Origin: Corallium rubrum
Taxonomy: Eukaryota > Cnidaria > Anthozoa > Scleralcyonacea > Coralliidae
Direction of reading: 5' to 3'
NCBI GenBank assembly: GCA_964035015.1
Contig: OZ035998.1
Span: 16,040,179-16,104,178 of the forward strand
DNA length: 64,000 bases
Shown piece by piece: positions 2,903-63,745 of this stretch. Within the stretch, counting starts at the first letter, position 1; each line of letters begins with the position of its first letter. Position numbers and translations under genes: made by a program. The notes under the pieces were generated by a model that saw only the letters and a list, made by a program, of their open reading frames with translations, was not told the origin of the DNA and did not search any database.

Positions 2903-4371
2903 GTAAGGCGCTACATATTCTATTTTATACTAGAAATACATGATCGCAACAACCCCTTGCCCACTTTTAATATATACATTTTTGTAATCCACCACCACTA
3001 CCACCACCACCACCACCACCACCAAACACACACTTTCTGTTGCTGTTTTTTTTGTTGTATTTAAGTCTATTATAGTTTTTATATTTTTGTATTTAGTCTA
3101 TTATAATTTTAGTATGTAATAATAACATTAACAGCCTGAAAAATCAGTTTTGAATATAGAAAGAGAGAAACCAGTATAACGTCAAAGAAAATTCGTTGCC
3201 AAAGTTCATCTGTATATAGTCATGTATTGACACACCGAAAGAGCATACAAAGTCAATATTAAAAAAGAAACAACGAGATGAACCAAATAACAAATTTTCA
3301 TTCAAAATAGATAATAGTGGCCAAGAAAAGACACAATGCCACGTCCTAGTGTCCAAAGACAACTGTAGACAAGAATATTATTTATATTGCATGATTTTCT
3401 TTTTCAAGGCTCAGCTAAGCTGGTAAATATGAATCTCCCACAAACACTGCCAATTCAGTCTATACTCTTTTCAGAACTCAGATTGTTTTTCTCGTTTGGT
3501 TTCTTACATTTTCCATGACCAGGCATCATTCAGTTCTCCTCAAGATCTAAAAAGCCGTTTGTTTCAAACTGATTTCTTCTTCGTTCTCCCTCGAGTTAAG
3601 TATAGAATACACCAGAGCAGAATTCTTTACATGCTTTGGCCAGTTTCAGTACACAGTGTCGTTTTCGGTCTACGTCGTAACAGTTACTAGTACCCTGCTA
3701 TCCGAACTGCGAAAGTTGCGGATTTGTTGACATATATACCATTACCAGAAATTTGGGACAAGACGGTGGCGCGCGTGCGTATTAAGGACCATGATAATGG
3801 AGATTCTCAACAGTAAATAATAAGGAGAGCACACAATAATTCAAATTTTGCTTAAACGGTTACATATTTCTTCTTTGCCCGACTCCAGTTGACTTCACCA
3901 TGGACTAAGGAACAGTTATAACTAAAAAACTTTTGCTTACTTCGACGACAAAGTACTTCCCCAGCTCGTCTTATTTTTGCACTGAAAGCGCCACTATCCA
4001 TAGTGTTAGCCATAGTAATCTTTGCAAACAGGTTCTAGAAATTGGCCAAATTGACCAACAACCTTACGAGCGATGCGAAGTGCCCGACTCACGTTGCATT
4101 CGGCATGAGTCAGTCTACTTCGAGAGCACATAAAAGTACTCATTTGTCTTTAGCATAGTACTTCCAAAAGCGTTTGAACTTGCTTGATTTCACAGTCCTT
4201 ATCGTGCACGATTTAGGCGAATTCTAAAGAACTCAATGACCTGAATAATGAGAAACACTAGAATACAGTAGAATCACACTCATTAGAAATTCTAGAATAC
4301 ATAATCATATTATTAGGCGAATATAGCCGCTGACCGAGAGCAGCGGCACAAATGACCCAAATTTCTGGTAA

Positions 4372-5481
4372 TGCATACATGCATACATACATACATACAT
4401 ACATACATACATACATACATACATACATACATACATACATACATACATACATACATACATACATACATACATACATACCTACCTACCTACCTACCTACCT
4501 ACCTACCTACCTACCTACCTACCTACCTACCTACCTACCTACCTACCTACCTACCTACCTACCTACCTACCTACCTACCTACCTACCTACCTACCTACCT
4601 ACCTACCTACCTACCTACCTACATGCATACATGCATACATGCATACATGCATACATGCATACATGCATACATGCATACATGCATACATGCATACATGCAT
4701 ACATGCATACATGCATACATGCATACATGCATACATGCATACATGCATACATGCATACATGCATACATGCATACATGCATACATGCATACATGCATACAT
4801 GCATACATGCATACATGCATACATGCATACATGCATACATGCATACATGCACATGCATACATGCATACATGCATACATGCATACATGCATACATGCATAC
4901 ATGCATACATGCATACATGCATACATGCATACATGCATACATGCATACATGCATACATGCATACATGCATACATGCATACATGCATACATGCATACATGC
5001 ATACATGCATACATGCATACATGCATACATGCATACATGCATACATGCATACATGCATACATGCATACATGCATACATGCATACATGCATACATGCATAC
5101 ATGCATACATGCATACATGCATACATGCATACATGCATACATGCATACATGCATACATGCATGCATGCATGCATGCATGCATGCATGCATGCATGCATAC
5201 ATGCATACATGCATACATGCATACATGCATACATGCATACATGCATACATGCATACATGCATACATGCATACATGCATACATGCATACATGCATACATGC
5301 ATACATGCATACATGCATACATGCATACATGCATACATGCATACATGCATACATGCATACATGCATACAAGCATACAAGCATACAAGCATACATGCATAC
5401 ATGCATACATGCATACATGCATACATACATACATACATACATACATACATACATACATACATACATACATACATACATACA

Positions 5482-5555
<74 letters not shown>
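4372..5555. repeat. Compound tandem array (ACAT)n-(CTAC)n-(ATGCATAC)n-(ACAT)n-(AT)n
   Basis: About 1.2 kb of uninterrupted tandem repeats: ACAT units to about 4478, CTAC units to about 4620, then some 90 ATGCATAC octamers with a short pure ATGC block at about 5158-5197 and an ATACAAGC variant at about 5366-5390. ACAT units follow to about 5510, then an AT run. Long frames open on both strands are by-products of the period and encode only Met/His/Tyr/Cys/Ile repeats. Confidence 0.97.
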
Positions 5556-5558
<3 letters not shown>

Positions 5559-12858: not shown

Positions 12859-13150
12859 TGACCTATATATGTAACTGGACTAGGGATTTTAGGTGAAGGA
12901 AAATTCGAGTGTAGAATATATATATTTTAAGACCAAACCGGGACCAGTTTCGAAAAATGCAACTATGCACAGGCCTTCCGGCAGGAATTGAACCCACGAC
13001 CTTGCGATTCTAGTGCAATGCTCTGACCACTGAGCCACGGAGGCTGTTGCCGAGAGCTTGATCGCGAGTTCTGTATACATTAAGGTGGTAATGCCAGGAG
13101 AGAATTGGGTTTATTAGAAGTAATATTGGGCATTTCACTCGATTACATAG
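12859..13150 (-). repeat. tRNA-derived SINE, copy 1
   Basis: Reading on the minus strand, the head carries an A box (GTGGCTCAGTGG) and a B box (GGGTTCAATTCC) at about 12985-13047, with arms resembling a tRNA and loop bases AGA at the anticodon position. A shared tail follows: GGTCCCGGTTTGGTCTTAAA, then TTCTACACTCGAATTTTCC. The cloverleaf is imperfect and continues into a non-tRNA body, so it is a SINE and not a tRNA gene. Copy 2 is at 60620-60872. Confidence 0.75.
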
Positions 13151-30144: not shown

Positions 30145-30237
<93 letters not shown>

Positions 30238-30395
30238 CAATAATGGAAACTTTATTAAATGTCTTTTTATATAATATACAATTGTAAATCTCGCTTATTT
30301 AAGGTAATTTACAATCGGCTACTTGAATCAACACTAACAATATATAACTAATAACTATATATAACAACATAAAACAAATATACAGCACAATCATT

Positions 30396-31412
30396 TTAAA
30401 AAGTTAGCAGTTCAGGATTTGTCCATTCCTTGTTTCGGCAACAGAATATGTAATAGGTGGTTCTGATTGCGATCGTCGTCATTCTACTAATACAATATTT
30501 TTGATGAGTCTTGTCAAGATTAAGATCATTTAGCATTTCTATGAATGTAGAACATTCTGCTGCAAAGACACCAAGGCAGCCAATCGATAGGTTTACAAAT
30601 TTAACTGATCTGAATTGTTCACTTTGACTTTGTTCCCTAATCAATTCTGAATATTTGGATTTTTTACGATCGACGTTGTTCTGAAGATTTGACTCAAAAC
30701 CAACAGTCAGTTCAACAATGTAGAGGCATCCACTTGGAGTTGATAGGAGCAAGTCTGGACGGTATGTGTCACCAGTTATTATGGATGGACTTTTATAACC
30801 TGGAAGATCAACATAAAGACTTGAACCACTTACGGTCTGTAGGGTCGTTGCGAGAAAGTTCAAGATAGAGTCGTGTCTCCATGTAAATCGTTCCAGGTAC
30901 GACTGGCAACCTGCCACTACGTGAAGAAGAGTTTCCGGGACCAGACAAAGAGAACAATCTGAAGTTGGTGATACACCCCATCTTGCAAGGGTTTTGCGCG
31001 TGGGAAGAGAGTTATTCATATATCGTATCGTAAAATTAAAAATATTTTTCCGGAGGTTGGACTGAGACGCACACCATATTTTCGTAAGCTGGGGAAAGGA
31101 GAACTTAGTAATATTGGAGAAAAAGGATCCCTGACAGGTTAAATGGTTATGGAGTCTATCTTCTTGTCCAGAGCGAAAGTCCTTAAGAACTTGCTTGGTG
31201 GAGTTATAGACATACTGGATATTTGTGCTGTTACTAGTTGACTTCCAGAGTTCATTGATTGCTTGGTTTGGAGATGTTTTAAGAGCTGTACGGAGAACTG
31301 TTTGGCATTGGGTGAATTTGACAGATGGAGGACAAATATTAAGACCAAATTTGTTTCTGGTTAGGTAGACAGTACTAAGTGTTCCTGATATAGGTATTAA
31401 ATTTCGAGCCAT
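30396..31412 (-). pseudogene. LINE C-terminal frame: zinc motif and endonuclease
   Basis: A 338-codon frame. After the RT thumb region it carries C153-x2-C156-x7-H164-x4-C169 (CSLC...HVVAGC). The endonuclease core follows: RPD at 218-220, then IVELT with E234, and a KKSKY lysine cluster at 250-254. This order is characteristic of LINEs that cut with a restriction-like nuclease and not the apurinic type. The true upstream continuation is in a different frame (31400-32203). Confidence 0.8.
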
Positions 31413-32203
31413 TTACGAATATAACTGTTCGCTACAGAATCAATGTTCTCTGAAATCCAAGTTTTTGATAAAGTAGTAACAGTAAAATGCCAGGATATTT
31501 TGGATAAAACATAGCGACTGTACAAGAGGATTTTATTTTTTGGATGTAGTGGCCTGGAATCAATATCAGTCATTACTTCGTCAATAAGGGAGGTAAGTTC
31601 AGACTTGTGTTGTTGATCGGACATATTGAAGTCAAAGTATCTTCCTAAATATTGAAAATACTCGCCAATTTTGGTCGCTGGAATTAGTTGATTATTAATG
31701 AGGAGTTTCGGTAGATCTTGGATGGATTTTGTTACAGCTTTTTTAATGCCAAAAGTACTACACTTATCAATCCGTATAATCATGTTGGACCATTGGCACC
31801 AAATAGAAAAGCGGTTCAAAAGATGTTGGTTTTCTGATTCTTGACTACTTATAACAGCAGCGTCATCAGCAAACTGAAACCAGTGGATAGGATTTAAAAA
31901 CTGAAAGGAGAAACCAAACTGACGATACTTCTCGGCTTTGATATGCTGAATAAAAGTGTTAAAACACATATTAAACAGCAGAGGACTGAGACAATCGCCT
32001 TGCAGTACGCCACGGCCAACAGATATGAACGGAGTACAGAATTCAGGTGTAATTATTGAGGTATGGAAATCCGTGTATAGACTTTTTATAACAAATTTTA
32101 TATGGTCAGGGATATGGTGGTAATGAAAGACGGATTGAATTAAATTGTGATGAACTTCGCCAAAGGCATTTTTCAGGTCAAGCAGAGTGATGACAAGAGA
32201 AAT
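31400..32203 (-). pseudogene. LINE reverse transcriptase fragment
   Basis: The frame carries the RT catalytic motif A (LLDLKNAF), GVLQGDCLSPLLFN, and the catalytic FADD box (HWFQFADDAAV), then thumb sequence ending IRKWLEI. The run of Ile codons in front is translated microsatellite, showing that truncation fell just upstream of motif A. The frame closes within a few codons of the point where the downstream frame opens, so a single indel near 31400-31412 breaks the protein. Confidence 0.85.
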
Positions 32204-33362
32204 AATAATAATAATAATAATAACAATAATAATTATGTGCCAAATCAATAAAGCTGCTTCCTCGAACTCCTTCCTGAGCTAACGTCAAACTACATTTTTC
32301 TGCTCTGCATAAGGAAGCCTTCGGACAGGAATGACAAACAAGCTATCGATAACGAAAGCCACTTCCTAGCCAACATAAACACACCTTTTGTCATATAAAT
32401 TGTTGTCAGTGCTCTCTATAGCCATACTATTCCTCCAATAAATTCAGAACGTTTCATATTTTTACTTAGCCTGCATTCATAATCCCCAAGCTATGGCGCA
32501 AAGCGCGGCGAGAGTAATCTCACCCTGCGTGGAGTTTGACTTGCGCCATGAATTGTAAAAGGACTGGGTAGGAAACTAATAGTCATGTGCGGTGTTTTGA
32601 GCCTTTTGATTGGTTAAATCGCATTTACTCAGTTTGCAAAATGGTTGAAACCTAGTTGCAAATAGTGATGTTACAAATGGTGTGAATGTGTTTGTTTTCT
32701 ACTGAGGTTTTTAAGTGAACTTTTTTTTAAATTCTTCATCTTCTCACATTCAGATGACTATGTTGACGGTTCACATGATGTTATCACCTTACAAACCTGC
32801 CTAAGCCACAATCGAGTGTTCCAGTTAAACGTTGCAGTTGATCTTTGTTTTGATGTTTCCTGTGTTGTTTTGAAGAAAGTGGCGTCGCAAAATAATGCTT
32901 TGTTTTGCTCGGAATTTGCGATGCATATTTTAACTAGTAAACCTTGATATTTTCTTTTAAAATGCGTAATAATAGAAGGGCATTCTATCGTATTGTGGTT
33001 TTGTTGTATTTACAGGCAGTTCAATTATTATTTTAAGCTGTATTAATCCTAAACTTTGAATATAGTAGGGGATTTTTAAGCTTGTCAATTTCGACCAGGT
33101 TGCCATGCTCATGCCATGAAGTTTCCTATCCAGTCTTTTTACTATCCATGCTTACACCGAGTTGAAAAAGCATGCAAACGAATTCAATCAGAAGGCGCCC
33201 CAAATGTTCGCGGATCTCTATGAATATGCCATCAAGAAATTGTGGGATATGCGCAGTCCATAAAAGTAACATTTTCAGTGCGCGGTAAAAACAATACGTC
33301 ATTTTATCTGTTTCGTAATTTTATCATGTTTGTGCAATAGGTTATGCTGCGCTATATTATAC

Positions 33363-41029: not shown

Positions 41030-42460
41030 ATTAGTTTTAATAATGAAATACTGACGTTTCGAGCGGAGCTCTTCATCAGAGTAAAATGTGTAAATCAGAT
41101 TCGTATAGGTAATAGCATGGTTTCGAGTGCAATTTGGAAAAAACATGCACAAGTGAGTTTTTCAAAGACTATCAAAATTGCACGAGTCCGAAGGACGAGT
41201 GCTATTTGAGGTCTTTGAAAGACTCACGAGTGCGTGTTTTTTCAAAATTGCACTCGAAACCATGCTATTACTTATTTTATAATATACATGAAAATGTTAG
41301 ACAAAATGTTCTTCCAGCTACGAAGTTAGGGGCGACTTCCATACTCATTTTGCCACGCAAAACGTCAAACTGACGTTTTGACTGGGTGGGTGGGTTATTT
41401 AGAGACGGTTTGACGTTTTGCGTGGCAGTTTGAATTTGCAAGAGAAGAAAGAGAAGAGATGAGAAAATGGTTTTTAATAACCTGTGTTAAAACGCTTTAA
41501 GACGTCAGAATGAGGTAACATGAGGTATCCCCTATTAAACATATACCGCTGTACTAAACTTTGTGGTCTCATGTGTTCGCTGCTGTACGATACGCTCTTG
41601 TGAAAGACAGCAACTGAAGGTAATTTATTTATCATAAATCCTTTGTAATCCGTCATGCATATCGCTTTATGAATATTCTAAATCATATTAGTTTTATTTT
41701 AACACAATGTTCTGGTGCAGCGAGCATGAAAAACTCAAGCCAACTGTAGCGACTAGCAAACAAAACCTGACACCACGAAACGTTCATGGTTGAGTTTTAA
41801 TACATGGAAAATGAACTTGAAACATGAAATTTTTTTAGTTAATATTATATTCATATACACACTTGACGTTTTCAGCACTGGGTGGGTGGGTCATGGCGAA
41901 AACGTCAGTTTGACGTTTTGCGTGGCAAAATGAGTATGGAAGTCGCCCCTTACATACCACTCATTGCTCCACTTCTCGAAGCTTTAATGGTTGAAAACTG
42001 CTTCATTTTGTTCACTAAATACGTCAAACGTTTTACTCATAGCATCTAACCTTTCTAGTCTTCTTGTAGGAACTTTTATGACAATATTAAAGCAAAATTC
42101 ACTGTGTATTTCATCGAAATGTTCTTCGACAACTTTATGTTTTGGTCGCCATATTGGATTTTCTCGTGAAGGAAAAACCATCCTTCAAAATCCGCATAGG
42201 CATTTCATTGGCTTTCCGGTAGATTCCGGTTGTTTATTAGCCAATCAGAATGCTTAATACTCATTGAAATTTGCACTGTATTACACCTTTTCTGCACTGT
42301 ATTACATTGAAATTGCACTCCTCTCGACCAATCAGGATGCAGTAATTTTGTCATGTATATTATTAAAACGTGTAATAAAATGTAACATTTTACTCTGATG
42401 AAGGGCTCCTCCGCTCGAAACATAAGTATTTCGTTATCAAAATTATAATATTCGCAGTTT
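41030..42460. repeat. Nested fold-back elements
   Basis: The outer arms at 41030-41090 and 42376-42450 carry CTGATGAAG...GCTCGAAAC cores. Inside is a unit (41330-41953) whose ends read GGGGCGACTTCCATACTCAT and ATGAGTATGGAAGTCGCCCC, with GACGTTTTGCGTGGCA repeats. A separate hairpin at 41120-41275 starts ATAGCATGGTTTCGAGTGC. It is non-coding. Confidence 0.65.
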
Positions 42461-61987: not shown

Positions 61988-62690
61988 TTGTGGAAACACC
62001 ACGTATAATTTTTATTTGCTAAGCTTTCGGCCTGTTAACTCAGGCTTTCATTAGAACAATAACAACAAGCTCAGTTGGCTCACGTCATTTATAAACTAAG
62101 CAACTGATCATTTAAGACTGCGTTTACACTAGAGCAAAAGTATCCGGATTCACATTGTTTTTCATCCTCATGGGAATAAAAAACAATGTGAATCCGGATA
62201 TTTCTGCTCTAGTGTAAACATAGTCTAAATCACGTAAGAATATACAATGGCGTATCACGTTAATTTTATTAGAAAACAAAATCAAGAATAGTATAGTTTT
62301 ATAACTGCTTTGCATTGCTTTGGTGAAGAATGTTATAATATGTTTGCGGATATATACAACCATGTAAAATATATTTATTCTACTGAGCTTTCGTGCTGTG
62401 TTGCTCAGGACATCATCAGAGCAATCTGATAGTTACAAAATATTAAAAAAATCCATGACGTTTACAAACTATCATAGATTGATCTGATGATGTCCTGAGC
62501 ATCACAGGACGAAAGCTCAGCGAATAAATATAGTTTACATGGTTGTATCCGCAAACATTTTTAATTGATCAGTTGCTTGGTGTATGAGCCAACAGCTTGT
62601 TGTTATTGCTCTGATCATGAAGGGCCGAGTCAACAGACCGAAAGCTTAGCAAATAAAAATTATACGTGGTGTTTCCACAAAACCTAACTA
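61988..62690. repeat. Nested inverted repeats carrying four hammerhead-like cores
   Basis: The outer arms (61988-62115 / 62562-62690) pair through GTGGAAACACCACGTATAAT. The inner arms (62335-62425 / 62460-62560) pair through GGTTGTATATATCCGC. Cores of the form CTGATGA-stem-GAAAGC lie at 62024-62054 (-, CTAATGA), 62382-62419 (-), 62484-62520 (+) and 62611-62650 (+, degenerate). A small MITE (62112-62229, GACTGCGTTTACACTAGAGC ends) is nested inside. Confidence 0.6.
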
Positions 62691-63060: not shown

Positions 63061-63205
63061 ATGCTATTTGGGTGAAGGAAAATTCGAGCCGGTGTAGAAT
63101 ATATACATTTTAAGGTCTTAAAATGTATATATTCTACACTCGAATTTTCCTTCACCCCAAATCCTCAGAACATGCTACTTAATCGAGTGAAATGTCCAAT
63201 ATTAC
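63061..63205. repeat. Head-to-head SINE tail fragments
   Basis: GGTGAAGGAAAATTCGAG and its complement CTCGAATTTTCCTTCACC face each other 63 bp apart, followed by AATCGAGTGAAATGTCCAA of the SINE leader. A further fragment lies at 63460-63520. Confidence 0.65.
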
Positions 63206-63364
63206 TTATATATATATATATATATATGAGGCACCAAAGGTGATTGTAAATAGCAGTTACCTTCATCCTGCTCATCAGCACTACACTGATGAGGCCCAAA
63301 AGGCCGAAACGGTACCGTCTGTAGTTATATATATATATATATATATACATATATAGATACATAC

Positions 63365-63436
<72 letters not shown>
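63206..63436. repeat. AT microsatellites bracketing the ribozyme
   Basis: AT runs at about 63206-63227, 63326-63348 and 63370-63436. Confidence 0.9.
63280..63325 (+). ncRNA. Hammerhead ribozyme, type I, complete core
   Basis: Stem I: 63280-63285 (ACTACA) pairs with 63320-63325 (TGTAGT). Catalytic box CTGATGA is at 63286-63292. Stem II: GGCC 63293-63296 pairs with GGCC 63302-63305 around CAAAA. GAAA is at 63306-63309. Stem III: ACG 63309-63311 pairs with CGT 63316-63318 around GTAC. C63319 is the cleavage-site base, so predicted cut is between 63319 and 63320. Every conserved core position is present. Such ribozymes occur in Penelope-like elements and retrozymes of animals; no reverse transcriptase of that type is seen here. 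Confidence 0.85.
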
Positions 63437-63438
<2 letters not shown>

Positions 63439-63645
63439 AGTATGTTCTATGGATTTTTGGTGAAGGAAAATTCGAGTGTAGAATTTAATCGAGTGAAATG
63501 CCCAATATTACTTCTATATTTCAAGTAGTCGTTTACATAAATAGACGATATACTTTTGAAGGTAGAGCAAGATAGATTTTATTTTAAAAAAATGAACGTT
63601 GCTACTCCGAGTTTCATGCGTTAAGCGAAAGTGAAACTTTTTCAG

Positions 63646-63686
63646 TTGCCTGATGATCGCTTAACGCGTGAAACTCGGAGTAGCAA
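63646..63686 (+). ncRNA. Second hammerhead-like ribozyme
   Basis: Stem I: TTGC 63646-63649 with GCAA 63683-63686. CTGATGA is at 63650-63656. Stem II: CGC 63658-63660 with GCG 63666-63668, preceded by a T-T mismatch where G-C is usual. GAAA is at 63670-63673. Stem III: ACT 63673-63675 with AGT 63679-63681. A82-position base A63682 is the cleavage-site base. It is weaker than the first because of the mismatch and short stems, and lies in the right arm of an inverted repeat (63585-63700). Confidence 0.55.
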
Positions 63687-63745
63687 GATTCATTTTTTTA
63701 AAATTTGTTGATACGTATACATGTAGTGCATGTGGTACGTTTGCA

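Follow-up and report, generated by a model that had tools for sequence, protein, structure and literature searches.

A 5'-truncated retrozyme copy in a TA repeat of Corallium rubrum and the junction pattern of its high-copy family

The window, i.e., the whole analysed stretch of 64,000 nt, harbored a 101-base element (63227-63327, forward strand) inserted within a TA repeat. Based on the alignment to one unit of locus L024 and on the letters themselves, it corresponds to a retrozyme copy shortened on its 5' side, in which nt 139-231 of the unit (63227-63319) are joined to the initial 8 nt of a next unit (TGTAGTTA, 63320-63327). It is bordered upstream by a TA repeat (63207-63226) and downstream by a TA-rich repeat (63326-63436). 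The exact boundaries are ambiguous, as both the T at 63227 and the TA at 63326-63327 might just as well be counted as part of the repeat. Palindromic MITE-like repeats at 63067-63160 and 63439-63515 flank the retrozyme, with related pieces elsewhere in the genome, e.g., three copies 277 bp apart in locus L044. An inverted repeat with arms of 48 nt (63581-63628 and 63657-63704; 94% complementary, 28 nt spacing) was also identified. Elsewhere, the window revealed (ATGCATAC)n and related tandem repeats of about 1.2 kb, which are open in several frames (4371-5556), and a tRNA-like sequence on the reverse strand (12973-13044, 43.3 bits), which may be SINE-like, as a near copy of it sits in a repeat of locus L013.

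The 3' half of the element displays a type I hammerhead ribozyme motif at 63280-63325 (forward strand). Stem I is formed by ACTACA (63280-63285) and TGTAGT (63320-63325), the core CTGATGA (63286-63292) is followed by stem II (GGCC at 63293-63296 and 63302-63305), GAAA (63306-63309), stem III (CGGTACCG, 63310-63317), and the TC (63318-63319) after which the cut would be expected. Thus, CUGAUGA, GAAA, a UH before the cut, and three helices with helix I open place it in type I, helix III being a tight palindrome only. Comparison with the Rfam family Hammerhead_1 (RF00163) over 501 bases resulted in a full-length match (63280-63325, E 8.5e-6) with a score of 31.0 bits, 3 bits below the gathering score of 34, which is an entry criterion of the database and no biochemical definition. 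The three listed units of L024 scored similarly (31.0, 31.0, and 28.6 bits, all below 34), and a search of the whole window at gathering level yielded the tRNA only and no hammerhead. Matches of the region to Rfam microRNA, snoRNA, and viral-UTR families all stayed below the gathering scores of their families and were rejected as microsatellite or palindrome artefacts. Using a strict descriptor (at least 5, 4, and 3 pairs in stems I, II, and III and a strict core), one match was found in the window and six in 7,304 dinucleotide shuffles of it, both strands included, and a chance origin of the motif is therefore very unlikely.

A sequence-only reading of this DNA had reported a complete hammerhead at this place, with CTGATGA, GAAA, and the C cleavage base, and had called its chance occurrence very unlikely; both statements agree with the letters, the full-length RF00163 alignment, and the shuffled sequences. 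Its claim of three fully paired helices is in part too generous, since the helices are present but the palindromic stem III leaves a loop of 2 nt in a single molecule. The covariance-model search that it had proposed as a check, with a hit above threshold, formally went against it, by the 3 bits given above.

The bare pattern of CTGATGA, hairpin, and GAAA occurred eight times in the window (1.48 expected). Additional motifs of this kind, several of them as facing pairs within inverted repeats, are located at 41057-41079 and 62389-62419 on the reverse strand and at 42395-42420, 62484-62514, and 63650-63673 on the forward strand. None of the additional motifs of the window passed a relaxed full-hammerhead descriptor; they resemble minimal Penelope-type motifs.

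Judging from its sequence, the window copy with its single hammerhead could cut a transcript but could not release a circle. Its minimum-energy fold, calculated for the 99-nt island, is not predicted to be the hammerhead, because an upstream arm (CTCATCAG, 63271-63278) pairs with the core CTGATGAG (63286-63293) and is thus predicted to hide the catalytic center. Further upstream, an imperfect hairpin (AAGGTGATTG...CAGTTACCTT) is predicted at 63237-63263. For the circular unit, the predicted minimum-energy fold of -83.5 kcal/mol likewise has the core hidden in the CTCATCAG/CTGATGAG hairpin, compared to -74.5 kcal/mol with hammerhead stems I and II formed and the core unpaired, both values being secondary-structure predictions without tertiary contacts.

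A search of the genome (474 Mb, 312 contigs) with the 104-bp island, a query with a few letters of the TA runs at both of its ends, resulted in 716 candidates, of which 40 were scored, all of them as matches of 99-100%. The flanking sequences of the loci revealed an element with a unit of about 231 bp, occurring singly or in head-to-tail tandem, of which the island is the 3' part. While L024 contains three complete units plus a partial fourth, other loci are shortened at differing points on the 5' side. Altogether, 82 clusters were detected in 77 of 79 loci (L036 and L051 yielded none), and 76 were kept after removal of four duplicate loci (L040, L059, L061, and L065) and two pieces shorter than 40 nt; 75 of these are distinct, as L097 and the minus-strand cluster of L049 coincide. 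Their lengths were below 220 nt in 37 cases, 220-240 nt in 13, and longer in 26, with a maximum of 805 nt. Identity to one unit of L024 had a median of 98.9% and a minimum of 93.7% (93 pieces aligning over 90 nt or more, with duplicates counted). In the genome, the 3' end together with the TA behind it had 259 exact matches, the junction between two units 230, and a mid-unit probe 290, while the backward controls of all three probes gave none. The unit has a GC content of 0.494 and no long reading frame (the longest open stretch in its fourfold repeat comprised 64 codons), and its copies terminate in TA repeats rather than in long terminal repeats. A type I hammerhead in a short repeat within 150-450 bp, present from single copies to multimers, corresponds to the metazoan non-LTR retrozymes. 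Judged on sequence features, the assignment of the window element to this group as a 5'-truncated copy is near certain. Taken by itself, the copy is an unremarkable representative of this group; the junction pattern of its family bears on the question of how such RNA circles return to DNA.

These results also modify what had been said on the origin of the island. The genome-wide search suggested by the sequence-only reading did recover copies with conserved stems, in hundreds of exact matches, and the proposed mobile element in an AT run was confirmed for a TA run, but the term remnant falls short, since a high-copy family and no isolated relic was found (259 and 290 matches, see above). As to the two origins considered, the non-LTR retrozyme with its unit of about 231 bp holds and the Penelope-like element does not.

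For the analysis of the 3' ends, the way in which loci were found matters: L001-L058 came from queries that included the beginning of the TA tail, which biases their 3' ends towards TA, and L059-L066 were found via the unit junction. A tail-blind sample was taken from the first 29 places of the 290 mid-unit matches, corresponding to 27 loci, all on contig C1 (L087-L099 plus L032, L038, L039, L040, L041, L046, L047, L052, L054, L058, L060, L063, L064, and L066). In this sample, 26 of the 27 loci run into (TA)n between -5 and about +8 nt from the scissile bond, 24 of them reading across the bond and two (L060 and L066) stopping before it; the exception, L064, ends near +76 and has no pure TA run. 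Thirteen end at TGTAGTTA, while the remainder stop at TGTAGTT, a six-letter variant, TGTAG, TGTA, TGT, GGTAC, or GGTA, a letter being substituted in several of them. The pattern used for a second set required TA no more than 24 nt from the ribozyme; here the end position and not the TA itself is the finding. Of the first 29 loci in this set, 18 end at TGTAGTTA, two each at TGTAG and TGTAGTT, one each at TGTA and TGT, one at +13 (TGTAGTTAGATAT), one at the variant TGTTGTTT, and three before the bond (GGTA, GGTAC, and ACCG). Thus, 26 read across the bond and none ends exactly on it. One further retrozyme piece, located in L062, stops precisely on the scissile bond within a TATATG repeat, as expected for a linear RNA after cleavage. 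Overall, at least eight distinct junction points around the bond were identified. For those copies that cross it, the template must have had the bond intact, as in a circle or an uncut multimer. The unit sequence directly following the junction is TGTAGTTAGATAT; judged by its letters, it would allow pairing to a (TA)n primer with a single mismatch.

On the 5' side, a TA run of at least 10 nt was present within about 45 nt of the end in 56 of the 76 clusters (10 of 13 in L087-L099), compared to a rate in random stretches of 2% in the window and 4-5% in the flanks of the loci; the 5' flank is not TA in the remaining 20. The corresponding count for the 3' side (71 of 76 with a TA run within 60 nt) is biased by the selection. 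One palindromic repeat has its two arms on either side of a 71-nt TA-rich run in L019 and of a retrozyme within TA in L027, and the unoccupied paralogous site of L019 indicates that the TA run can precede the insertion. A search of the open-licence PMC literature revealed no report of TA-repeat insertion or of ligation-site 3' ends of retrozymes, although subscription papers may hold more.

The first 100 of the 230 unit junctions were distributed over 69 arrays; 50 of these contain a single junction, 11 contain two, and four each contain three and four. Within the eight arrays that have at least two spacings, the unit spacing differed by a mean of 1.17 nt compared to 4.08 nt after permutation, and none of 10,000 permutations was as low. 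Five of these arrays are uniform (230, 230, 230; 237, 237, 237; 229, 229; 231, 231; and 237, 237), while three are mixed (222/231, 228/230, and 229/231). Mostly uniform lengths within an array, with differences between arrays, would be expected from repeated laps along a single RNA circle; recombination that homogenised the units afterwards would produce a similar picture.

Among the matches listed for a type I core with the required TA, two further retrozyme types were identified. A second family reads CTGATGAGCTGTAGTACAGCGAAACACGTGTC followed by TGTAGATTGAACTAT(TA)n and forms a tandem in L102, with units 278 bp apart, in which the unit-unit junction continues differently after TGTAGATTGAACTAT. 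The third type is represented among these matches by the single locus L106 and differs from the second family in stem I, which reads CTGCA/TGCAG instead of CTACA/TGTAG. In both types, TA is reached about 7 to 15 nt beyond the bond. L107 was considered as another retrozyme and rejected, since its stem I does not pair by eye. A core-hiding hairpin as a general retrozyme trait is likewise unsupported, the second family having, by eye, no exact TCATCAG just upstream of its ribozyme.

Candidates for enzymes that might move such elements were also found. A search of the genome for GIY-YIG endonuclease domains resulted in at least 143 matches among the 150 scored of 1,845 candidates. In L077 and L085, a single open frame combines a GIY-YIG domain above the cut-off with a reverse transcriptase below it (Pfam scores of 27.0 and 24.8 bits against a cut-off of 29.6; E 4.5e-6 and 2.1e-5, respectively). 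Of 20 Penelope-like loci, 15 run into TA downstream of the endonuclease. Two families among them revealed a double end: in family A, three loci stop at a short end and five at a long end 36 nt apart, and in family B, three stop at each of two ends 42 nt apart, while L069 represents a third kind of end. The five loci without TA either diverge earlier (L067, L068, and L070) or pass the long end (L076 and L084). A comparison of the retrozyme with these 20 loci gave no sequence similarity at E<=1. For Penelope elements, a 'tail' of short and long ends is described for an Anolis element in which reverse transcription initiates at two internal positions and AT-rich DNA is cleaved (PMC11167929), and simple AT-rich targets are favoured (PMC3846280). 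The window itself contains a broken LINE on the reverse strand (30396-32278; RVT_1 66.9 bits, zf-RVT 27.4 bits and just under the cut-off), with (TTA)n and not (TA)n downstream of it (repeat at 30148-30244), a comparison covering one LINE. A tblastn search of this LINE against the collected loci matched the window itself only.

Based on these observations, we propose that a reverse transcriptase of the Penelope-like type copies circles of the retrozyme, with priming at TA repeats that have been nicked. Transcripts of tandem arrays would be cut by the hammerhead into monomers of about 231 nt and closed into circles, steps that were demonstrated, together with transcription, for retrozymes of other animals (PMC7229834). 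A Penelope-like protein with reverse transcriptase and GIY-YIG endonuclease would nick a TA repeat, whose (TA)n end would anneal to the UA-containing sequence immediately behind the ligation junction (UGUAGUUAgAUAU). Copying would then cross the junction and continue round the circle, so that a stop within the first lap would leave a truncated copy like that of the window and several laps a tandem array. Taken on its own, we regard this mechanism as somewhat favoured, and the joint explanation, retrozyme identity together with the circle and the Penelope-like mechanism, as quite probable. A more specific version, in which the circles parasitise Penelope-like elements, the hammerhead folded by the ligation junction marks the start of reverse transcription at nicked TA, and rolling copying builds the arrays directly, is tentative and about evenly balanced, leaning slightly to the negative. 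In that version, the hammerhead would have a double role, as circle maker and as landing site of the copying enzyme.

The intact bond would also be explained by a linear read-through, in which an uncut transcript running into its own TA tail serves as template, so that (TA)n is inherited as in a LINE or SINE and single copies need no circle. The identity of 18 of the 29 listed junctions (TGTAGTTA followed by TA), as if inherited from few sources, and the frequent truncated single copies (37 of 76 clusters below 220 nt) fit this explanation, whereas the eight or more junction points around the bond, the mostly constant unit length within arrays, and the TA on the 5' side of most copies do not, and we consider it rather unlikely. 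The mover could further be a reverse transcriptase of LINE type that also uses TA repeats. LINEs or PLEs are both named as possible movers (PMC7229834), and Penelope-like movers were proposed mainly from co-occurrence, the mover itself being left open (PMC7229834, PMC7761336). In this genome several kinds of repeats are flanked by TA runs; TA is thus no private mark, and the link of Penelope-like elements to the retrozyme is one we infer. Nevertheless, the sole LINE examined has (TTA)n downstream, while two Penelope-like families end in TA with the double end of the Penelope type, and a LINE mover appears unlikely.

Two further explanations concern the identity of the island. A fragment of a Penelope-like element with a minimal hammerhead, the first candidate of the sequence-only reading, would be in line with the type I hammerheads carried by such elements (PMC7229834, PMC11167929) and with their frequency in this genome. 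It is nevertheless highly improbable in view of the repeating unit of about 231 bp, whose stems I and III pair while Penelope motifs are described as minimal (PMC7761336); the absence of a reverse transcriptase or GIY-YIG frame in the unit and of similarity to the 20 Penelope-like loci led us to reject this identity. That a hammerhead-like sequence arose by chance beside a microsatellite agrees with the Rfam score under the cut-off, but is refuted by the rarity of descriptor matches in the shuffles and by hundreds of exact matches to parts of the unit, plus the arrays. For the question of the mover, the genome supplies testable junction evidence, namely 3' ends at the ligation site, TA targets common to two Penelope-like families, and lap-like unit lengths, and its many closely similar copies are suited for experiments.

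Compared to known systems, the family resembles the non-LTR retrozymes of Acropora millepora and other metazoans, which also have a type I hammerhead, short non-coding units present singly and in tandem, a GC content below 50%, and many copies (PMC7229834). By description only, unit sizes are comparable as well, with 220-240 bp in metazoan retrozymes, about 225 and 245 bp in the units of a coral, and 231 bp here (PMC7229834). Insertion into TA repeats, 5' truncation, and 3' ends just past the junction, as seen here, are not described in the main text of PMC7229834, in which the words 'microsatellite', 'truncat', and 'tail' do not appear. In most animal circles covered there the hammerhead is free to fold, while a core-blocking hairpin is predicted here, so that our family may differ in hiding its hammerhead. 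With Penelope-like elements it shares a hammerhead close to the 3' region, copies in tandem, AT-rich targets, and, if our proposal is correct, an internal start of reverse transcription (PMC11167929, PMC3846280); unlike these, which encode reverse transcriptase and GIY-YIG, it encodes nothing and has no sequence in common with the 20 Penelope-like loci compared. Plant LTR retrozymes are, by analogy, also non-autonomous and pass through a circular RNA intermediate made by the hammerhead, as would be the case here, but differ by a type III hammerhead, LTRs, target duplications of 4 bp, and circles of 600-800 nt (PMC4918200, PMC7229834).
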